DNA of 62,764 bases. Source: Ignavibacteriota bacterium (GTDB taxonomy: Bacteria > Bacteroidota > Ignavibacteria > UBA10030). The stretch covers positions 1 through 62,764 of the forward strand of contig JAKEEG010000009.1 of NCBI GenBank assembly GCA_022616555.1, in the 5' to 3' direction. The number at the start of each line of letters is the position of its first letter. The first letter of the stretch is position 1. Position numbers and translations under genes: made by a program. This document shows, piece by piece, positions 18,556 through 28,916 of the stretch. A model generated the notes under the pieces. The model made no database searches, was not told the origin of the DNA, and saw nothing but the letters and a program-made list of their open reading frames with translations.

Positions 18556-20175
18556 GTGACCGACTTTTCACAATACTCTTTACTACTACCGTTTCTTCTC
18601 TACGCCGAAACCCATTACCGCTTCAGGTACTTCTTCAGCTATCTCAAAAAGCCTGAGCCGGAGATACTTGCCGATGCACCGCACAGGTTGGAGCCGGGTC
18701 AACCCATTACTCTATTATTATTAAGTAAAGACGGTGACCTCTACCCAGCGACTTTGCGACAAGCCACAGCGTATGTTACACAGCATGGCAAAAGAATAAG
18801 TGAACACCAGCTATTAGAATCGCCTGTTCCACTCAATGCTCCTTATTGGTGGAGGGTTTGCACTATTGATTCACCCGTCCAGCAAGGTTGGATAGAAATT
18901 GATGTTGAATTCGAGCTAGAAGCCTCTCAAAAGACAACGAGGCATCGGAATGACAACTACTTGACGTCTTCTCATGCCCCACTTCGTATCTACAAGAGCA
19001 AGGAGCCCCTCCCCTGTTTTCCGGGGTTGTATCTTGGCGATTGCCATACCCACTCCACGTTTACAGAAGATCAGGTTGAATTCGGCTCGCCGCTTGAAGG
19101 CTCTCTTCAACTTTGTAAGAGCATGGGCTTATCCTTCTTTTGTGCGACGGACCATTCGTACGACCTTGACGACAAGGTAGATTCTTATCTCGAAAATGAC
19201 CCTACCCTGCCGAAATGGAATGCCTTACAGCGCCAAGCCGAGTCGTTAAACCAGGAAGAAACCGGTTTTGCCATTGTCAGAGGGGAAGAGGTTTCCTGCC
19301 GAAATGCGGAAGGCAGGAACGTCCATTTTCTTGTATTGGGAAACCGCGGGTATATTCCCGGCTCAGGCGATAGTGCAGAGCGCTGGTTCCGGACACACAG
19401 TGAACACAGCATCCAAGAAGTGCTGCAGCTGAAATCCGCTGATGCGGTCGCTATTGCGGCTCATCCGAGCGAACCGGTGCCGCTCCTCCAAAGACTGCTC
19501 TTAGGACGTGGCGGATGGGATAATGTAGATCTCAAGAATAGTTTTCTTGATGGGGTGCAGTTTCTTAATGGAAGTCGGGATAACGGTTTTCGAGCGGGTT
19601 ACAAAAGCTGGGTTCTGCGTTTGCTAACAGGACAACGCTTGTTCGCCTTCGGGGGAAACGACGCTCATGGGAATTTCAACCGTTTTCGGCAAATCGGGGT
19701 ACCATTTTTCACCATCCGGGAGAGCGGCCAACAGTTGTTCGGCAAAGCAAGAACCGGGGTTTTTCTTGACTCAAATATAACTGAAGCAAACATTCTCAAA
19801 AGCCTGAAGCACGGAAAGTCAATACTAACCGACGGACCTGTGATAAATATCCGACAAGAAGGCCGTAATCAAGTAACGGCAATCGGAAACACAATTACCG
19901 GCAAAATGGTCCAAATGGAGCTGGAGGTAAAGTCCTCAACCGATTACGGGAGCATTGAGCACATTCGCGTGTTGAAAGGAACCTTGGGTACCGACGAGGA
20001 AGAGCTTATCTATTCGAATTTAGGCGTAGGGGGGATGGAAAAGAAGGAATTGCTCTCTATCGATGTAGCGCGGCCAATGTACATTCGCGCAGAAGTGACT
20101 ACACGTGCAAGCGACTCGTATGACCGGGAATCACACTTTGCATTGACAAATCCAGTGTGGTGCAACCCTTCATAA
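18556..20175 (+). CDS. PHP-domain phosphoesterase-like protein
   Basis: 539 residues from a GTG start. After an N-terminal beta-rich domain of about 155 residues, the PHP metal motifs appear: GDCHTHSTFTED (Asp162, His164, His166), ATDHSYD, RGEEVSC and FGGNDAHGNF. The set is that of the polymerase-and-histidinol-phosphatase metal hydrolases. The C-terminal 130 residues are another beta domain. No signal peptide. The substrate is not evident; stand-alone PHP proteins of this size are usually annotated only as metal-dependent phosphoesterases. Single gene ending at a shared terminator. Confidence 0.85.
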   Translation: MTDFSQYSLLLPFLLYAETHYRFRYFFSYLKKPEPEILADAPHRLEPGQPITLLLLSKDGDLYPATLRQATAYVTQHGKRISEHQLLESPVPLNAPYWWRVCTIDSPVQQGWIEIDVEFELEASQKTTRHRNDNYLTSSHAPLRIYKSKEPLPCFPGLYLGDCHTHSTFTEDQVEFGSPLEGSLQLCKSMGLSFFCATDHSYDLDDKVDSYLENDPTLPKWNALQRQAESLNQEETGFAIVRGEEVSCRNAEGRNVHFLVLGNRGYIPGSGDSAERWFRTHSEHSIQEVLQLKSADAVAIAAHPSEPVPLLQRLLLGRGGWDNVDLKNSFLDGVQFLNGSRDNGFRAGYKSWVLRLLTGQRLFAFGGNDAHGNFNRFRQIGVPFFTIRESGQQLFGKARTGVFLDSNITEANILKSLKHGKSILTDGPVINIRQEGRNQVTAIGNTITGKMVQMELEVKSSTDYGSIEHIRVLKGTLGTDEEELIYSNLGVGGMEKKELLSIDVARPMYIRAEVTTRASDSYDRESHFALTNPVWCNPS

Positions 20176-20248: not shown

Positions 20249-21229
20249 TTATCTCTGCCGGGCGCTTGGAATACCGAGCCTCTTCAGCTTGTAGCGTAGA
20301 GTTTGCTCAGTCATGCCAAGGAAGCCGGCTGTGCGGGACTGGTTGAATGCAAACCGATGGAGGGCCCGCTCGATGATGCCTTTTTCGATGAGGTCCAACG
20401 ACCTGTCCAGAATAAACTCCTGACCAGCAACGACGTTGTTGATCATCTTCACGACTTCCGTCTTCTCGTCCACCAACTCCGGCGGCAGAACGAATTTTCC
20501 GCCTGTCGAGAACAGCACTGACTTGTCAATGACTGCTTTTAACTCACGGATATTCTCTCTCCACGCATGCCGCACAAGCACATCGATAGCGTTAATGTCT
20601 AGCGTAATGTCTTTGAGGCCAACTTCCTTGCCAATCTCGCTGACGAAGTACTTTACCAGCATGGGAATATCCTCTGGTCTGTCACGGAGCGGCGGGATGG
20701 CAAGCTGCTCAACGTCTTCCAACTTGTTGGCAAATTCCTCAAGTAGCTTTCCTGCTTCGCGCAAATTCCTCGGAGTCTCCTTCATCGTCAAAATCACACG
20801 TGTGTTTGACGGCGAAGGCTGCGTACCGCCCAGGCGGATCGTCGAACGCGTTTCAAGGTAGTTGAGAATAATTTTTTGGTTGCGGAAACTCGCCTCTTCG
20901 GCTTCTTCGATGACAACTGTACCGTTATCGCCGAGTTCAAACAAGCCGCGCTTGGTCGTTGGTGGCATGCCGGGCACGCCGCGCTCAAAACCAAGCAGGA
21001 TTGTTTCCAATTCCTTATCGTCGATGATGCCGGCGTTCACCGTCACATACGGATGTTCGCCGTGCCCGTTTGAGCTGTACTGGGTCGAATGAATATTGTT
21101 TGCGGCGGTACCTTTGCCGACACCGACTTCGCCGATAAGAAGAACATCCGTCGTCGTTTTCGCGAGCGAAGCAATGTGCCGCTTTACGGTCTCGATTGCC
21201 TTACTTTTGCCGATGAGTTGTTGTTCCAT
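20249..21229 (-). CDS. Sigma-54-activator-like AAA+ regulator without GAFTGA loop
   Basis: 326 residues with no N-terminal receiver or sensor domain. Walker A GEVGVGKGT (33-41), Walker B GTVVIEEAEEA (103-113), arginine finger region PPLRDRPEDIP, and a C-terminal Fis-type helix-turn-helix (NQSRTAGFLGMTEQTLRYKL). Where sigma-54 contact needs GAFTGA, this protein has GFERGVPGMP (80-89). In characterised activators loss of that loop abolishes sigma-54 activation, so it may be a repressor or work with another polymerase form, as TyrR and PspF-like variants do. It sits downstream of an unknown 8-TM protein and is probably cotranscribed. Confidence 0.85.
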   Translation of the reverse strand: MEQQLIGKSKAIETVKRHIASLAKTTTDVLLIGEVGVGKGTAANNIHSTQYSSNGHGEHPYVTVNAGIIDDKELETILLGFERGVPGMPPTTKRGLFELGDNGTVVIEEAEEASFRNQKIILNYLETRSTIRLGGTQPSPSNTRVILTMKETPRNLREAGKLLEEFANKLEDVEQLAIPPLRDRPEDIPMLVKYFVSEIGKEVGLKDITLDINAIDVLVRHAWRENIRELKAVIDKSVLFSTGGKFVLPPELVDEKTEVVKMINNVVAGQEFILDRSLDLIEKGIIERALHRFAFNQSRTAGFLGMTEQTLRYKLKRLGIPSARQR

Positions 21230-21292: not shown

Positions 21293-21475
21293 TTATTGAC
21301 CGAAAATTCTCAATGCAAGTCTCTGGATAAAGTTAGGCTTTTTCTCTTGTCGGGCGCGGTGTAAAAAACCTTCCATGAAGCGTTTCCGGGTTAAGAAAAT
21401 GGCGAACAACAAGATTATCAAACCCGTCACGCCAACGACTAATATGTTCAGAATCAGAAACGAGTTCTCGCTCAT
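21293..21475 (-). CDS. Possible 60-aa single-pass membrane protein overlapping the gene before it
   Basis: The ORF starts inside the 3' end of the 8-TM protein gene (143 bp overlap, different frame) and runs 40 bp past it. It reads as a neat small membrane protein: an N-terminal hydrophobic helix (FLILNILVVGVTGLIILLF), a basic stop-transfer TRKRF, and an amphipathic tail ending NFIQRLALRIFG. A weak AGGCG lies upstream. The C-terminus of the longer frame also looks real, so either both are used or one is a chance reading. Confidence 0.35.
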   Translation of the reverse strand: MSENSFLILNILVVGVTGLIILLFAIFLTRKRFMEGFLHRARQEKKPNFIQRLALRIFGQ

Positions 21476-22520
21476 AGAATTCGCCTTTGACGCTTGTAAT
21501 GAAGCGCAAGCGAAGGCTGAAGAAGATCAATAGGAAAAGTAGATTGGCAAATGTAAGGTACTGGCCAATTCGGTGTAGTTCGAGATAGCTGCCCCATTCA
21601 ATCGACTTAATGTAAGCGAAATGATGGAAAATTTCAAGAGAGCAGTACGGTAACAACAAAAATACAATCTTCTCGATATACGCACCTTGCGGAGGGTCAT
21701 TCTTGTATTGATAGCCGAAGAACAGGAAGATGAAAACGACACCCAGCACATTCAGATAAATGACATTCAAATAGAGCGGCTTGTAGATGAGCGTAAATAC
21801 ATTCTGGCCTTCAAGGTAAGGCAACAATTCAGCTACGCGACGCACCTTTTGATTCGCAAATAATGTACCTACTTGCAGGTCCCCATCCCACGCAGCAAGG
21901 TCTGTAAGGCTTGCGACCTTTTCAGCGGTGATCTGGTTATCCCCCGATGCTTGTAATTTTTCGACTGTAGTTCGCACAGCTCGAAAATCAACTATATCAG
22001 GAGTTGAATAGGCATACGTCGGGTTTTCGAGGATGGGGTGAAAATAATATACGAATACGCCACCAACGACTACCAATGTCAGGAGATACTTTGTGTACGT
22101 TTTGAAGTCATTGAATAGAGAATCAAACACCAAGTAAACAATTGAAATGGCAAGGAGGAAATAGAACAGCGAGTATGAGTATTCAAAGTAGAAAAATCGT
22201 GCGTAGACCTCACTTGCCCAGAGTGCTCGGCCGATAAAGATCGCCAGATAAAACAGCACAGAGCTCAAAAAGAAGAGAGCAAAATTAAAAAAGATAGGTT
22301 TGTTCTTAGGATTTGGCTCTCGCAGGAAAATGTAAAATGAAACGATTCCCAATAGCAGCATGATGGCATTAAAAGCAGCATCGCCTAACGGAAGCCCATT
22401 ATGCGGCAATACCGTAAGCAACAACGTTGCTACCACAATGCTACCAATCCAAATCAAAAATATTTTTTTAGAGAGCTTCAGTTTTTTACCTATCGTTATG
22501 CACAACGAATATAACATCAC
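21333..22520 (-). CDS. Unknown 8-TM membrane protein
   Basis: 395 residues. Five N-terminal membrane helices (the first IFLIWIGSIVVATLLLTV), a soluble loop of about 100 residues between helices 5 and 6 (from ENPTYAYSTPD to VFTLIYK, likely outside), then three more helices and a charged C-terminal tail with ISRWRDGFD. I do not recognise a family. It is followed 100 bp later by the AAA+/Fis regulator, so one reading is a membrane sensor paired with a cytoplasmic regulator. No enzymatic motif seen. Confidence 0.7.
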   Translation of the reverse strand: MMLYSLCITIGKKLKLSKKIFLIWIGSIVVATLLLTVLPHNGLPLGDAAFNAIMLLLGIVSFYIFLREPNPKNKPIFFNFALFFLSSVLFYLAIFIGRALWASEVYARFFYFEYSYSLFYFLLAISIVYLVFDSLFNDFKTYTKYLLTLVVVGGVFVYYFHPILENPTYAYSTPDIVDFRAVRTTVEKLQASGDNQITAEKVASLTDLAAWDGDLQVGTLFANQKVRRVAELLPYLEGQNVFTLIYKPLYLNVIYLNVLGVVFIFLFFGYQYKNDPPQGAYIEKIVFLLLPYCSLEIFHHFAYIKSIEWGSYLELHRIGQYLTFANLLFLLIFFSLRLRFITSVKGEFYERELVSDSEHISRWRDGFDNLVVRHFLNPETLHGRFFTPRPTREKA

Positions 22521-22787
22521 TTCTCCCGTTAGTCAAGCTCTTTCTTGGTTTCTGTAGGCGCTCTGTGGTCTTTTGTGACACTCAGCGCACTTCGCTAACT
22601 CATTGATTTATATAGCGATAATAGATTCCATGTTAGTACTCTGTGTAAAACCTACTCTATCCTACAATAATCCCTTGACAATAGCTAAAAATTAGTTGAA
22701 ATTAGTGGTGTTTTTGAACATAACGCTAATTCTTTCAGTGACAGAAATCACTTAATAACCATAATCTAATCACAAGGAGCTCTAACA

Positions 22788-23009
22788 ATGTTTTCTTCAA
22801 GCACCGCCAAACGCTTCCGTTCAATCGCAATCGCGCTTGTCATCACGTTTGCGACCAACTACGCAATCTCTCAGGCAACAATGAGTGGGCCGACAGCTCC
22901 ACCTCCGCCAATACCAGCAATCGATCGTAGCGGACCGACAGCTCCGCCGCCGCCAATTCCAGCGATTGATCGCAGCGGACCGACAGCTCCTGAGCCGCCG
23001 AGACCATAA
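22788..23009 (+). CDS. Small secreted proline-rich repeat protein, copy 1
   Basis: 73 residues with AAGGAG upstream. Residues 1-29 form a signal peptide (basic KRFR, hydrophobic IAIALVITFATNYA, cleavage expected after ISQA). The mature part is only three copies of a 15-16 residue unit: SGPTAPPPPIPAIDR twice, then SGPTAPEPPRP at the end. There are no cysteines and no other domain. The second copy 52 bp downstream is nearly identical in the signal peptide. I know no family with this repeat. It may be a periplasmic or surface peptide, or a precursor cut at the DR-SG junctions. Confidence 0.75.
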   Translation: MFSSSTAKRFRSIAIALVITFATNYAISQATMSGPTAPPPPIPAIDRSGPTAPPPPIPAIDRSGPTAPEPPRP

Positions 23010-23061
23010 GAATCGAATAATTTTATAACAATCATCTTAATTCAATACAAGGAGTTCTAAA

Positions 23062-23289
23062 ATGTTTTCTTCAAGCACCGCCAAACGTTTCCGTTCAATC
23101 GCCATCGCACTTGTCATCACTTTTGCGACTAACTATGCAATCTCGCAAGCTGCATCAAGCGGCCCAACTGCACCAGAACCGCCGCGACCTGTAACGGTTG
23201 ACCGCAGTGGACCAACTGCACCGGAACCGCCAAGACCGGCACCGATTGATCGCAGCGGACCGACAGCTCCTGAACCGCCACGACCATAA
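23062..23289 (+). CDS. Small secreted proline-rich repeat protein, copy 2
   Basis: 75 residues, tandem paralogue of the gene before it with the same signal peptide and same AAGGAGTTCTAAA leader. The mature part is SGPTAPEPPRP-VTVDR, SGPTAPEPPRP-APIDR, SGPTAPEPPRP. Compared with copy 1, PEPPRP replaces PPPPIP in the first two repeats. Conservation of the SGPTAP block and of the signal peptide between copies, with drift in the linkers, suggests selection on the repeat. A terminator follows; next comes the site-2-type protease. Confidence 0.75.
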   Translation: MFSSSTAKRFRSIAIALVITFATNYAISQAASSGPTAPEPPRPVTVDRSGPTAPEPPRPAPIDRSGPTAPEPPRP

Positions 23290-23320
23290 TCGAATAGCAA
23301 GATTTATTTCTTCGTTTTTT

Positions 23321-23361
23321 AGCTCCGGTAGAGCTATCATGAGTAGCTCTGCCGGAGTTTT
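23321..23361 (+). terminator. Terminator after the proline-rich gene pair
   Basis: A 15-bp stem with two G-U-type pairs (AGCTCCGGTAGAGCT / AGCTCTGCCGGAGTT), 9-nt loop, then a T-rich run. Confidence 0.85.
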
Positions 23362-23431
23362 TATTTGAATTTTTTGCTACATTACACAGCGTTACTGAAT
23401 AGCTTCTGAATACAACAGCATTTCCAATTGA

Positions 23432-24475
23432 ATGACTTACGAAAACCCTGTACCTACTTTTAGTTCATCTCCGCCGCCGAAGCCCGATAGACGCTTTCTG
23501 ATCAATATTGCATTATTCATCGCAACATTTTTTACTACTATGATCGCCGGCGCTGCCTGGGCAGGCAGAGATTATTACGAGCTTACCAACCTCAAATACG
23601 GTTTAGAATATTCTGTCGCTATTCTATTTATCCTTGGTTGCCATGAATTTGGGCATTATTTTGCCGCCCGATTCCACAACGTCAAGACAACGCTTCCATA
23701 CTTTATTCCGTTTCCGCCTCTTCCGTTCTTCTTAAACTTTGGAACTCTTGGTGCTGTTATCCGCACACGGGCGATAGTTCCTTCAAAGAAAGCGATGTTT
23801 GATATCGGTGTTGCTGGGCCGCTCGCCGGTTTTGTTGCCTGTCTTATTGTGCTGATCTATGGCTTTCTCACGCTTCCGGGTCCTGCGTATATACTATCAA
23901 TTCATCCACATTATGATTTTCAGTTAAATACTGACCCGACGACTTCCGGTTATCCTCTTGAATTCGGCGCTACACTATTGTATAGCGCACTGCAGCAGCT
24001 TTTTACCGACCCAACTAATCAATTTGTGCCGCCGATGAGCGAAATGTATCATTATCCCTTTCTCTGTGTCGGCTGGTTTGGCCTGTTTGTGACTGCGATG
24101 AACCTTATCCCCATCGGCCAATTTGACGGCGGTCATCTTGTGTATACGATGTTTGGAGAAAAGCACCGAATGATTGCACTCTGGGCTTTTCGTATTCTTC
24201 TTTTGCTCGGCTTTCCCGCTGCTCTGGATTTTGTAATAAAAATCCTACTGTCTATTTTCTATCAAGCGCCTGTTGGGCCGGTCATCCCACTTTCCGAATA
24301 CAGTTGGGGCGGATGGTTCCTCTGGGCTTTAATCGCTTACAGAGTTGTAAAACTCTACCATCCTCCGGTTCCCGATGAGACACCTTTAGACGAACAGCGC
24401 ATGTTCATCGGCTGGCTCTGTCTGGGTATTTTCGTAATATGCTTCTCGTTCGCGCCGTTTACGATTCAACTCTAA
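23432..24475 (+). CDS. Site-2-type intramembrane metalloprotease (M50)
   Basis: 347 residues, about seven to eight membrane helices. The zinc motif HEFGH (His71, Glu72, His75) is followed by PYFIPFPPLPFF, the GPLAGF segment and the third ligand motif NLIPIGQFDGGH. This is the M50B group, close to the large membrane-embedded site-2 proteases that lack a PDZ domain. Such enzymes cut peptides or regulators within the membrane. It is the next gene after the two secreted repeat peptides, but a terminator separates them, so a link is only suggested by position. Confidence 0.9.
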   Translation: MTYENPVPTFSSSPPPKPDRRFLINIALFIATFFTTMIAGAAWAGRDYYELTNLKYGLEYSVAILFILGCHEFGHYFAARFHNVKTTLPYFIPFPPLPFFLNFGTLGAVIRTRAIVPSKKAMFDIGVAGPLAGFVACLIVLIYGFLTLPGPAYILSIHPHYDFQLNTDPTTSGYPLEFGATLLYSALQQLFTDPTNQFVPPMSEMYHYPFLCVGWFGLFVTAMNLIPIGQFDGGHLVYTMFGEKHRMIALWAFRILLLLGFPAALDFVIKILLSIFYQAPVGPVIPLSEYSWGGWFLWALIAYRVVKLYHPPVPDETPLDEQRMFIGWLCLGIFVICFSFAPFTIQL

Positions 24476-24724
24476 GAATAAGCCGAGAAGAAACAAGCTG
24501 CCGAGTCCGGGGAGTGCGTATCGAAGCATGGTTTTCACCTGTTTGGTTATTGACATTCAAGAGTTACTTTTGTATTATTCGTATGCTTATTTCCGACCGC
24601 TTTTTCACTTCTCGAAAGGCTCTCAGCGCCTAGATTGCTACGATAGCTTTTTTGCGTGAATGGACTCAGGGGCAGCAATCATTGTTAGTTTCTTTTCCTC
24701 TCGTTATTTCCAACTGAAACCGTT

Positions 24725-25522
24725 ATGAAAAGGCTGCTTTTAATTTTTGTTGGTTTATTCCTTCTTCTTAGTTGTGAGAAGACGGACGATACTGTTATTG
24801 ATTCCGTTGGAATAAGCCCATTTATTGTCTCTGCCTCAATTTCACCCGATACAATTGATACTGATACTATCGGAACCGACCCAAATCCAGACGATGTCTT
24901 AGAATTAAGCGTCAAGACCTATGCCACAGTTACACATCCGAGTGGAATTGAGAATGTGACTGTCCAAGCAAGAATTTTTGCGGCTAATTCAGGCTCTTTT
25001 CTGTCCTCAACAATTCTTCTCGATAATGGCAATGATGTAGATTCTACAATGGGCGACGGTGTTTTCTCAGGATGGAACACTTTCGAGATTACTCGTTCTG
25101 AGATTGGTACATTTCAAGTAGAGATAGTCGCGGAATATGGGATTAGCTACCAAAGCAGTGCCCATATTTTGCCCTTACAAATTGTTCGAAACAATGTGCC
25201 ACCCGTCCTCTCAAATCTGCAGGCGCCGGATACGGTGGACGTATCCACGACAACCGAATTCCTAATTACGGTTCAGGTCGCAGACCCTAATGGATTGGAC
25301 GACATTAAATCGGTTACACGGACAACCCCCAGCAATAATGTGTATCCTCTGAACGATTCGGGCAATAATGGCGATGCCTTAGCTGGAGACGGTATTTTCT
25401 CAGAAAACGTCACTCTGACCCCCCCACCCGCTCCTGGGTCATATGAGTTTCGCTTTCAAGCTTTTGATAAATCAAACCAAGGCAGCAATATCATTTTACA
25501 TACCATTGTTATAGTACCTTGA
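24725..25522 (+). CDS. Lipoprotein with two Ig-like domains
   Basis: 265 residues. The signal peptide ends in the lipobox LLLSC (Cys17), so it is lipid-anchored. Two similar beta-sandwich segments follow, each with a DNGNDVDSTMGDGVFSGW / DSGNNGDALAGDGIFSEN hallmark, in other words an internal duplication with an acidic Asp-rich loop that may bind calcium. First gene of the surface operon; its stop codon TGA overlaps the TTG start of the BNR gene. Confidence 0.75.
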   Translation: MKRLLLIFVGLFLLLSCEKTDDTVIDSVGISPFIVSASISPDTIDTDTIGTDPNPDDVLELSVKTYATVTHPSGIENVTVQARIFAANSGSFLSSTILLDNGNDVDSTMGDGVFSGWNTFEITRSEIGTFQVEIVAEYGISYQSSAHILPLQIVRNNVPPVLSNLQAPDTVDVSTTTEFLITVQVADPNGLDDIKSVTRTTPSNNVYPLNDSGNNGDALAGDGIFSENVTLTPPPAPGSYEFRFQAFDKSNQGSNIILHTIVIVP

Positions 25523-27066
25523 GAATAGCTCGGGCTTCGTTCCTCTTTATTATATGTCTCTCAGCGACTGCGCTATCACAGCAGCCGCATTCCTTCCGTT
25601 TGGGCAGCTCGCAAGTCCAATCTGGCAGTCCCTTCAGTAACATTATCAACGACCTCGTTGTAAGTAGTGATAGCATTTGGGTTGGAACGCATAATGGCGT
25701 TGATATGACAATCGGAGATGGGAGTGTGTGGCATCATTTCAATGAATCGAACGGCATCAGCGAGCGCGGGGTCTCAGGGCTTGCCGTGAGAAACGCGATC
25801 GTTTGGGTAGCACAGTCAAGGACGCTGGACGACGAGGCGCGGACACCGGCGGGAGAAGGGCTTTCGTACAGTACAGACGGCGGTGAAAACTGGACACACA
25901 TCCCCCAGCCGCGAGAGCCTGAAGGCGCGACTGTCGATACCCTCCTTTATGGCAACAATAAAATTGCGGCGCTGGCAATTACAACAGCAGCAAATAATCT
26001 TAGTTACGACGTTGCCCTCACAAGTGAAGCAATCTGGACGGCAAATTTTGCCGGCATGCTACGGAAGTCAACCAATAACGGTGCAACATGGTCAAGAGTT
26101 ATTCTCCCGCCGGATAATCTGAGCAGCATCTCCCCAACCGACACGTTGAATTTTGACCTCTCCCCCGTCTCTGGTGGGTTAGGTTTAACCGAGAATTATA
26201 ACCATCGGGTATTCTCCGTCCACGCAGGCAGCGACAGTGTTATTTGGGTCGGCACGGCTGGGGGAATAAATAAATCAACCGATGGCGGTGTTAGTTGGCG
26301 GAAGTTCTCCCACCAGAACCAATCACAGCCGATCTCCGGAAACTTTGTGGTTGCGTTGAACACTCAACGTTGGAACAGCACGGAAATCATTTGGGCGGCG
26401 ACGGTTAATGCTCTCGGCGAAGATGAGCAACGCGGGGTAAGCTTTTCTTTGGACGGCGGTGAGACATGGAAAACCACGCTCTTAGGCGAGTTTGCGCATA
26501 ACATCGCTTTCCAGGACTCTATTGTTTACGTCGTCACGGATAACGGGTTGTTTCGGTCGTCTGATATTGGCGAGACGTGGATTCGCACCGGGACTATTTA
26601 CGACACTCAGAACATGCAACGAATTACTTCGACTGTTATGTATGCCGTCGCCGCACAGGATAGCGCCGTTTGGCTCGGGGGTATCGATGGAATCGCCCGT
26701 ACGTTTGATTCACCCACGCAACAATTCGGGTCTGAATGGAGAGTATTCCGCACTGCAGAGACGGTCGGAAATACTTCGATAACATATTCCTACCCCTCTC
26801 CCGTCTCGCCGGATGATGAGGTAGTTCGCATTCACTATAGTACGCAGGGAAGGAACGCTCCGGTTACAATCAGAATCTTTAATTACGCGATGCAGCCGGT
26901 GAAAACGTTGATACAACAAGCGCAGAGATCCGGTGCTCAAGAACATGACGAAATTTGGAACGGTAAAGATGACTACAACGGCCGAATTTCAAACGGAGTC
27001 TATTTTTATATGGTAGAGGTTGAAGGTTTGGAACCCGTTTGGGGCAAAATTTATGTGGTAGAGTAA
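25519..27066 (+). CDS. Secreted BNR/sialidase-type beta-propeller protein with FlgD-like C-terminus
   Basis: 515 residues from a TTG start coupled to the gene before it. A signal peptide (SFLFIICLSATALSQ) precedes repeated SxDxGxxW blocks: STDGGENW, STNNGATW, STDGGVSW, SLDGGETW, SSDIGETW, giving a photosystem/BNR-type propeller. The last 85 residues (SYPSPVSPDDEVVRIHY ... WNGKDDYNGR) match the FlgD-Ig-like domain that in this phylum often serves as a type IX secretion C-terminal domain. Likely exported to the cell surface. The two following PorV-like barrels fit that route. Confidence 0.8.
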   Translation: MRIARASFLFIICLSATALSQQPHSFRLGSSQVQSGSPFSNIINDLVVSSDSIWVGTHNGVDMTIGDGSVWHHFNESNGISERGVSGLAVRNAIVWVAQSRTLDDEARTPAGEGLSYSTDGGENWTHIPQPREPEGATVDTLLYGNNKIAALAITTAANNLSYDVALTSEAIWTANFAGMLRKSTNNGATWSRVILPPDNLSSISPTDTLNFDLSPVSGGLGLTENYNHRVFSVHAGSDSVIWVGTAGGINKSTDGGVSWRKFSHQNQSQPISGNFVVALNTQRWNSTEIIWAATVNALGEDEQRGVSFSLDGGETWKTTLLGEFAHNIAFQDSIVYVVTDNGLFRSSDIGETWIRTGTIYDTQNMQRITSTVMYAVAAQDSAVWLGGIDGIARTFDSPTQQFGSEWRVFRTAETVGNTSITYSYPSPVSPDDEVVRIHYSTQGRNAPVTIRIFNYAMQPVKTLIQQAQRSGAQEHDEIWNGKDDYNGRISNGVYFYMVEVEGLEPVWGKIYVVE

Positions 27067-28026
27067 ATGATGAAATACACATACATAGTGCTTGTGCTTG
27101 TCTCCCTGCTGTTCCCTTATGCCTATTCACAGATCTCGTCGGAGTTAGGCAGAGAGCCTGGAGTGGTGATGAGGATGGGATTCGGCGCTCGGGGAATCGG
27201 AATGGGCAATGCGCTCAGCTCTGTGCGAAGAGGCGAGATCAGCTCGTATTACAATCCAGCGCTCGTACCCTTCCAATCAACAAGGACCGCTTCGGCAGCT
27301 ATGGGCGTACTCTCACTCGATCGTAGCTTGAATTTTTTGAGCTATGGGCAGGATCTTAAGCCAACCGCGGGCGTTTTCTTCGGAATCATCAACGCCGGGG
27401 TTTCAGACATTGACGGCAGAGATCTAAACGGCAGACACACGGAAACCTATTCGACTTCTGAAAATGCATTTATACTTTCGTTCGGTACGAGAATAAGCCC
27501 GAAGGTTAGCATTGGATTGACCAGCAAGATATTGTACTATAGCCTGTTTGAGGGCCTTAGCTCTACAACCGTCGGCTTTGACGTCGGTTTCATTTACTCT
27601 TTCTCCGATCAGCTTGCATTAAGCGGAGTCATACAGGACCTCAACTCGAAATACTCGTGGGACACCTCTACATTGTACGGCACGAACGGGAACACGACCA
27701 TCGAACGCTTTCCTCTCAGGAGAAAGGTAGGGTTAAACTATCACCCGGAGTACTTTGAAAGCACGGTGTCGGCAGAAATTGAATTTGTGAGATCCATCGC
27801 TATAGCCCGCTTTGGCGCGGAAATATACCCTATTGAGGAGCTTGCGCTAAGGTCTGGAATCGACCAAATCGACTTAAAAGGCGATCTCTCCGCTAAACCG
27901 TCGTTTGGTTTTACTTTAAAGCCCGATTTTGGGTTTGTTTCTTCGTATATTCACTATGCGTATGTAATAGAGCCGTATTCACCGCACAATATTCACATGA
28001 TTGCCGTTTCCGTTGTGTTTGATTGA
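27067..28026 (+). CDS. PorV/PorQ-like outer-membrane barrel 1
   Basis: 319 residues with an N-terminal signal peptide (YIVLVLVSLLFPYAYS). FGARGIGMGNALSS is the UPF0164/PorV N-terminal motif, followed by alternating beta strands to the C-terminal MIAVSVVFD. PorV-like proteins shuttle type IX cargo at the outer membrane. It starts directly after the BNR gene stop and overlaps the leader of the next gene. Confidence 0.8.
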   Translation: MMKYTYIVLVLVSLLFPYAYSQISSELGREPGVVMRMGFGARGIGMGNALSSVRRGEISSYYNPALVPFQSTRTASAAMGVLSLDRSLNFLSYGQDLKPTAGVFFGIINAGVSDIDGRDLNGRHTETYSTSENAFILSFGTRISPKVSIGLTSKILYYSLFEGLSSTTVGFDVGFIYSFSDQLALSGVIQDLNSKYSWDTSTLYGTNGNTTIERFPLRRKVGLNYHPEYFESTVSAEIEFVRSIAIARFGAEIYPIEELALRSGIDQIDLKGDLSAKPSFGFTLKPDFGFVSSYIHYAYVIEPYSPHNIHMIAVSVVFD

Positions 28027-28028
28027 CC

Positions 28029-28916
28029 ATGTGCAAACGTATTATCATACTCTTCTTCCCAGTTCTCGCGTTCGCTCAGGGAAATTCCACTGGGGCTTCA
28101 CACTTGAAGCTGCCCTTCACAGCCCGGAGCGCCGCAATGGGAGAGTCATTCGTGGCAGAGCCTGGACGGCTTGGTTCATTCGCGCTCAACCCCGCGAACA
28201 TGCAGCAAGTCGCCAGTCTTGAAATATTACTCTCTCACACCGAATGGATTCAAGACATCACTTCTGAATATTTTGCTATCGCCTACCCGGTAAAGTTTGG
28301 GACAATCGCCTTTGCAGTCTCGAATACAAACAACGGGGGGATCGAAATTCGTGATACCCCCGGTCCGCCTCTCTCGACATTTACAGCCCGCTCATCATCG
28401 TTCCAGGCCTCGTATGCGACAGCGGTTGCGCAGAATATTGGGTTGGGCATCTCAGCCAAATTCCTCTACGATAAATTGTACGTGGAGGAAGCGACAGGTT
28501 TTGCGTTCGATGCCGGTGTGCTGTACTCACTTCCGATAAAGGGGTTAGTCGTTGGAGCGTCTGTTGCCAATGTAGGCCAGATGAGCGCTTTTGTCACAGA
28601 AGATATTGAACTTCCGCTAACAGCACGAGTTGGGGCATCATACCAAATTCAGTATGATGATGATTTCGCAATCAGCGTAGGCTCTCTTTTTGCCAGCGAA
28701 CAGCGGGCGGAAACAGCCCGTTTTCATGTCGGAGCCGAGGCGAGTTACCAAAATCTCGTTGCACTCAGGCTGGGGTATCAGTCCGGCTACGACACGCGTT
28801 CGATAAGCGGAGGCCTTGGCGTAAATTTCGACTGGCTCCAATTCGATTACGGTTACGTACCCTTCTCACACGGGCTTGGCACAGCCCACGTCTTCACGCT
28901 AGGATTTCGCCTCTGA
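28029..28916 (+). CDS. PorV/PorQ-like outer-membrane barrel 2
   Basis: 295 residues from the ATG at 28029, chosen over the TTG six bases upstream. Signal peptide (RIIILFFPVLAFAQG), then the same PorV motif LKLPFTARSAAMGESF and SFALNPANM. Ends in the barrel strand HVFTLGFRL with the terminal aromatic-x-Leu pattern of outer-membrane proteins. Tandem paralogue of the gene before it in fold, though sequence similarity is modest. Confidence 0.8.
   Translation: MCKRIIILFFPVLAFAQGNSTGASHLKLPFTARSAAMGESFVAEPGRLGSFALNPANMQQVASLEILLSHTEWIQDITSEYFAIAYPVKFGTIAFAVSNTNNGGIEIRDTPGPPLSTFTARSSSFQASYATAVAQNIGLGISAKFLYDKLYVEEATGFAFDAGVLYSLPIKGLVVGASVANVGQMSAFVTEDIELPLTARVGASYQIQYDDDFAISVGSLFASEQRAETARFHVGAEASYQNLVALRLGYQSGYDTRSISGGLGVNFDWLQFDYGYVPFSHGLGTAHVFTLGFRL

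Follow-up and report, generated by a model that had tools for sequence, protein, structure and literature searches.

A candidate peptide-signalling cassette in uncultured Bacteroidota: a multi-copy peptide precursor, a predicted seven-helix membrane protein and an AAA+/Fis regulator

Introduction

Fungi and animals are known to pair multi-copy prohormones with seven-helix receptors. In bacteria a precursor usually yields a single signal peptide, which a kinase or a cytoplasmic protein reads; the Gram-positive systems as a rule follow this scheme, with a histidine kinase or a cytoplasmic receptor as the reader. In enterococci, pheromones are processed by the M50 protease Eep. The closest architecture to the one described here is that of the fungal Kex2-processed repeat proteins (KEPs) (PMC7329392), and Gram-positive peptide quorum sensing is treated in PMC7425212 and PMC7595303. 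Bacterial receptors with seven transmembrane helices (7TMR-DISM, 7TMR-HD and the LytS-type BtsS) carry fused output domains (PMC10653868). A literature search, with many subscription journals outside its reach, returned no bacterial precedent for a cassette of precursor, receptor and regulator.

Here we describe such a cassette in a stretch of 62,764 nucleotides, referred to as the window, and in related genomes. We regard it as a peptide-signalling candidate, to be placed in a separate category should the receptor role be proven.

Results

Two repeat-peptide genes in the window

The sequence-only reading of this DNA had picked out two open reading frames that each consist of a signal-type leader and three SGPTAP-x-PP-x-P units, and both are present as described.

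22788-23009, + strand: precursor gene 1, 73 aa; leader (residues 1-30) and three units
22884-22916 and 22929-22961: SGPTAPPPPIP units of gene 1; 22974-23006: its SGPTAPEPPRP unit; both spacers AIDR
23062-23289, + strand: precursor gene 2, 75 aa; leader as in gene 1
23158-23190, 23206-23238 and 23254-23286: the three SGPTAPEPPRP units of gene 2; spacers VTVDR, then APIDR

The 30-residue leader (MFSSSTAKRFRSIAIALVITFATNYAISQA) is near-identical in the two genes. The accompanying claim that the repeats end in DR holds only for units one and two in either gene, which are followed by DR; the third ends in PRP directly before the stop codon. Neither precursor falls into a family of Pfam, NCBIfam or PADLOC.

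Spread and anatomy of the precursor family

One hundred related genomes were searched at the protein level, and a profile made from the true matches (alignment A1) then detected relatives in 41 of the 98 genomes that represent the order. The sequence-only reading had proposed to look for such repeats in relatives. This recurrence, together with the use of different synonymous codons for the same peptide, indicates that the repeat pattern in the window is not due to chance. Members occur in metagenome-assembled genomes (MAGs) labelled Ignavibacteriae, Ignavibacteria, Chlorobi and Bacteroidetes, UBA10030 included. The family also comprises a precursor in G045 that is truncated where its contig stops, and one on a small contig (L167) in a MAG titled Nomurabacteria, which is probably misbinned. 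In a phylum-wide sample the precursor profile gave three short, doubtful matches outside the order, in frames of 136-1197 codons, and a genome-contig search with the precursor alone gave no match.

The leader, called by eye, follows the pattern K-R-x-R-S-[IVL]-x-[IV]-T...A-T-N-x-A-I-S in nearly every member, and one Asn within the hydrophobic part is invariant (alignment A1). Behind it the 41 precursors carry 2-9 units of 11-14 residues, usually with a PRP or PKP end, for example SGVMNIPDPPRP and STVPLLPDSPRP (four copies each), AGIPTLPDSPRP (three), SGGPIAPSDIPRP (nine) and ASGTTSNPLPPPP (seven); in the precursor of G016 a single clear unit is left. The longest chain seen, with nine units in one precursor, is that of locus L066 (G003). 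Between genomes the leader is conserved and the unit sequence differs. A single-copy precursor-like open reading frame ending in PTEPPPPPPPPIK / GSDPTEPPPPPPPPIK lies divergent from a distant relative of the membrane protein described below in G084 (L190, 333-647), and may be a minimal or decayed precursor.

Within one gene the units are identical or nearly so at the peptide level. When each of the 41 precursors was averaged over its unit pairs, pS was 0.483 (∼ 48%) versus a pN of 0.024 (2.4%), a ratio of about 0.05, with units delimited by hand-written patterns that admit only the variants seen and with serine codon switches raising pN. Since the units stay alike as peptides despite ∼ 48% synonymous divergence, each copy is selected as a peptide; recent duplication is not the cause of their identity, because DNA-identical unit pairs are rare.

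The spacers vary in length and sequence. Many consist of a single K or R, and longer ones include VTVDR/APIDR, RT/IVSERA/RT, KT/DAEKT and TLVDSR/TR/TRVRNLTAR. K or R ends or sits within most of them; spacers without either are found in G005, G065, G066, G082, G087 and G011, several of these in family f5, and a single protease specificity can therefore not be claimed for all genomes. The first unit is mostly preceded by K/R or by a leader-cleavage-like AxA, and in most members the last residue of the last unit is the C-terminus of the precursor. Judged from its sequence, this anatomy is that of a prohormone, and the genes are predicted to code for a multi-copy secreted peptide precursor. The earlier suggestion that the chain is cut by a protease into several peptides is thus supported by conserved units that are separated by variable spacers, mostly with a K/R end.

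Identical units, variable spacers and a varying copy number would also be explained if the PxxPRP units stayed in one secreted or membrane-tethered chain that binds a partner, for instance the membrane protein, and two members do weakly match the Pfam formin FH1 proline-rich model. We nevertheless consider such an uncut multivalent ligand unlikely: a rod would need neither the cleavable-looking start of the first unit nor a chain that mostly stops exactly at a unit, and basic residues lie at most unit boundaries.

A three-gene cassette

The multi-copy precursor is encoded in a conserved neighbourhood, which in the window is as follows.

18556-20175, + strand: CehA/McbA-family metallohydrolase (NCBIfam NF038032), left flank of the cassette site
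20249-21229, - strand: regulator with an AAA+ (Sigma54_activat) domain and a Fis-type HTH, without a receiver domain; adjacent in 36 of 41 loci
21333-22520, - strand: 8-helix membrane protein, putative peptide receptor; adjoins the precursor divergently in 36 of 41 loci
23432-24475, + strand: M50 site-2-type metallopeptidase (Pfam PF02163, 76 bits) with HEFGH and DGG motifs

In the 41 loci, inspected over up to 20 kb, the regulator and membrane-protein genes point one way and the precursor and M50 genes the other, with membrane protein and precursor back to back. Four of the exceptions for the membrane protein, and four of those for the regulator, are contig ends; in the remaining cases the membrane-protein frame is broken although the gene is present (G057), and the regulator was left unresolved by the calling of open reading frames (G003). 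The precursor, the membrane protein and the regulator are together in essentially all intact loci. The M50 protease, which the sequence-only reading had noted next to the repeat genes, is not their defining partner; the partners that co-occur with the precursor, not mentioned there, are the divergent membrane protein and the AAA+/Fis regulator.

Of the 57 genomes that have no match to the precursor profile, 52 also lack the membrane protein, and the five exceptions are contig ends (G027, G063, G071) or divergent versions (G018, with tandem receptors, and G084). Regulator matches of the same strength in this precursor-less set come from G018, G027, G045, G051, G063 and G071, nearly all of them contig ends, and a weaker one from G056. 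At two sites without the cassette (L196, L197) a CehA/McbA-like gene lies 41-66 bp from the M50 gene; in the window the three-gene cassette sits between these two genes. A tree of the M50 proteins calls for at least 3 changes of the cassette state (the starred branches) and for up to 5. The phyletic pattern, the empty sites and the M50 tree together argue that precursor, membrane protein and regulator were gained or lost as one unit.

Two loci, L213 6278-9561 (G005:C7) and L186 219-3558 (G018:C205), hold two tandem paralogous membrane proteins with an AAA+ gene; no repeat precursor is recognisable near either. For a defence reading, PADLOC offered only generic RtcR/PspF AAA matches for the regulator and none for the other genes.

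Models of the membrane protein suggest a GPCR-like arrangement of helices

The start codon of the window gene is uncertain, and relatives begin up to about 15-20 codons later. None of the 35 members (alignment A2) matched a Pfam or NCBIfam family over the cut-off, a 7TMR-DISM, 7TMR-HD or LytS-type domain of Pfam included. The membrane-protein profile found nothing among PDB sequences at E ≤ 1, and no match outside the order in the phylum-wide sample.

The AF2 model of the window protein has eight helices (pLDDT 86.5), and a second member, 39% identical, was modelled with a pLDDT of 83.0. For both models nearly all structural matches are GPCRs, aligned over TM2-TM8 (best Foldseek E 0.011 and 0.013; VIA Z 14.3 and 15.2; about 230 residues, rmsd about 4.3), with Foldseek E values that stay above 0.001 and Z values of a size that helical bundles reach by common arrangement. 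Because the PDB is rich in GPCRs and high scores come easily to helical bundles, we take the matches to reflect a shared arrangement and as no proof of kinship or function. From a positive-inside reading of loop charges, TM2 is predicted to start outside and the tail to lie inside (N-out/C-in), as in GPCRs. A variable outer loop of 81 residues (conservation 0.34) would then link TM5 to TM6, in the position that ECL2 has in GPCRs. The best-conserved parts are the cytoplasmic loop (0.83; QYKNDPPQGAYIE) and the tail (0.58; SRWRD). Examined for co-evolution, peptide distances and outer-loop distances showed no correlation beyond relatedness, with a partial Mantel r of 0.144 (p 0.096) given the regulator, and 0.02 given the rest of the receptor.

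The 3′ part of the membrane-protein gene is overlapped by a second frame (21293-21475, - strand), whose hydrophobic product is conserved: M..NWFLxLNILVVGxxxLIILxYxIFLTRKR... The frame is also present in L047, L048, L050, L051, L056, L058, L066, L097, L101, L104 and L105, and is confined to families f1 and f5. It may be a genuine overlapping gene, or may merely result from the conservation of the codons.

Regulator and transcription

The GAFTGA motif of AAA+ activators contacts sigma54 (PMC7057263). It is replaced in all 25 aligned regulators, for example by GVPGMP, as in the window, or by GVEGLP. All 20 genomes examined for rpoN have the gene, and a -24/-12 signal is not enriched in the intergenic regions between receptor and precursor (3.39 versus 3.27 in shuffled sequences). 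With the motif missing and these elements unenriched, a role as a sigma54 enhancer-binding activator was rejected. CTTGACA occurs in 29 of the 41 intergenic regions, versus at most 16 for any 7-mer in the shuffled set, and its boxes face both genes.

22675-22680, + strand: TTGACA box, putatively of a sigma70-type promoter for the precursor, whose start lies about 110 bp downstream; -10 element weak

The replaced GAFTGA and the sigma70-like promoters suggest that the regulator does not work through sigma54.

The regulator also bears on whether the peptides could be bacteriocins or antimicrobial peptides, with the membrane protein as immunity factor. That the products would be short, secreted, proline-rich and hypervariable between species speaks for this. 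Most units, however, hold one D/E and one R/K, a net charge of about 0 as read from the sequence, and the doubt that the sequence-only reading had itself raised over antimicrobial activity is upheld; an insect-type proline-rich antimicrobial peptide was rejected for lack of the strong net positive charge. An immunity function would hardly call for a Fis-type regulator or for a cytoplasmic tail that is conserved, and the cassette is without an exporter or a modification enzyme. We therefore rate a bacteriocin as very improbable.

The M50 protease is a neighbour that can be separated from the cassette

A site-2-type protease is indeed the gene that follows the repeat pair, as had been read from the window. 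Its retention beside the precursor in relatives, also expected, is seen in 35 of the 41 loci; in G038 and G052 it is unlinked, and the other four cases are contig ends. The M50 gene is present in all 38 precursor genomes that are ≥ 90% complete, and in family f6 the cassette and M50 tend to be absent together, which makes a helper role possible.

23321-23359, + strand: intrinsic terminator-like hairpin and T run between precursor gene 2 and M50; 17 pairs, about -28.6 kcal/mol

In 27 of 35 loci a strong hairpin of this kind, with its T run, lies between the two genes. With this element and the promoter boxes described above, the precursor is most likely its own transcription unit.

These observations bear on the idea that precursor and M50 form a functional pair, with M50 cutting the leader or the precursor as Eep does for enterococcal pheromones. 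Such a pairing would fit their frequent adjacency, the HExGH and DGG motifs of M50, its presence in every near-complete precursor genome, and the invariant Asn in the hydrophobic stretch of the leader, which could aid intramembrane cleavage. It is doubtful all the same, and we give it little credence: M50 is kept in 35 of the 57 precursor-less genomes, where lipoprotein, T9SS-like and porin-like genes accompany it in conserved order, it is unlinked from the precursor in two genomes, and terminators mostly lie between the two. On the same grounds M50 was rejected as an obligate or dedicated partner; if it processes the peptide, which is possible, it would be at most a shared protease. In the window (23432-28916) M50 is followed by genes for a lipoprotein, a beta-propeller/T9SS-like protein and two PorV-like outer-membrane proteins, an order that is kept without the cassette too and marks an uncharacterised conserved locus of the order. 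No match was found when viral contigs were searched with M50.

The precursor might instead be a dedicated substrate of periplasmic proteases whose freed peptides tell the membrane protein and the regulator about secretion or proteolysis within a single cell, with no signal passing between cells. An envelope-state sensor of this kind would use the same cassette logic, its receptor is predicted to lie in the inner membrane, and the M50 gene adjoins and is shared by all near-complete precursor genomes. Yet a housekeeping role needs no change of unit sequence from species to species, and the cassette is dispensable, with its three or more gains or losses; we hold this explanation, too, to be unlikely.

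Discussion

We lean towards an autocrine or cell-to-cell peptide signal, composed of a multi-copy precursor, a seven-helix receptor and an AAA+/Fis regulator, and consider this reading somewhat probable. A signalling peptide was among the options listed by the sequence-only reading, and it is the one that gains support. The family, the repeats, the selection on the units, the three-gene cassette and the predicted seven-helix fold rest on data; around them we propose the following mechanism. The leader would carry the precursor over the inner membrane, and proteases may cut the spacers, mostly at or beside K/R, and so free several copies of a peptide (in the window SGPTAPEPPRP and its sibling SGPTAPPPPIP, whose exact mature ends are putative). 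The divergently encoded membrane protein would sense the peptide from the periplasmic side, and through its conserved cytoplasmic loop and tail may govern the AAA+/Fis regulator, whose gene comes directly after its own. The regulator would in turn act on the promoter region that the divergent genes share, and probably on further genes. Since the units differ between genomes, the signal would be species-specific. To be a cell-to-cell signal, the peptide of 11-14 residues must also cross the outer membrane.

If uncultured Bacteroidota do communicate by a conserved, co-inherited cassette of precursor, receptor and regulator, this would be a new architecture of bacterial communication. It would give about 40 natural peptide-receptor pairs for work on specificity, and would offer a bacterial model for the coupling of a GPCR-shaped receptor to a partner that is not a G protein.

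The individual parts have relatives among known systems. The regulator shares the AAA+ Sigma54_activat domain and the Fis HTH with enhancer-binding proteins of the PspF/NtrC type, but differs by its replaced GAFTGA (25 members) and by a promoter region with sigma70-type elements. As in the Eep system, an M50 protease lies near the gene for a secreted peptide; here, however, M50 is separable from the cassette and the precursor is not a lipoprotein. With 7TMR-DISM, 7TMR-HD and BtsS the membrane protein would share a seven-helix sensor in the bacterial inner membrane. Unlike the 7TMR-DISM, 7TMR-HD and LytS-type receptors it has a short C-terminal tail only, with no kinase, cyclase or HD domain, and its gene stands beside that of a peptide precursor. 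Gram-positive quorum sensing (agr, Com, Rgg/Rap) likewise places the gene for a secreted, species-specific peptide beside those for receptor and regulator, whereas our cassette has many copies per precursor, a multi-helix membrane protein without a kinase, and an AAA+/Fis regulator.

The comparison with yeast α-factor and the KEPs goes furthest. In these, as here, a leader is followed by several copies of a short peptide with basic residues in the spacers, the last copy is C-terminal and the units are diverse; a seven-helix receptor, which we propose here, would add to the likeness. The cassette differs in being bacterial, in its mostly single K/R or longer, sometimes non-basic spacers, in a receptor gene that lies beside the precursor and in the absence of a G protein; sequence homology was not detected. 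It is conceivable, though we put it forward tentatively and as less than probable, that the cassette encodes an α-factor-like bacterial peptide hormone, with a Sec-secreted multi-copy precursor that is cut into identical peptides and a GPCR-shaped receptor that signals to an AAA+ factor without G proteins or kinases.
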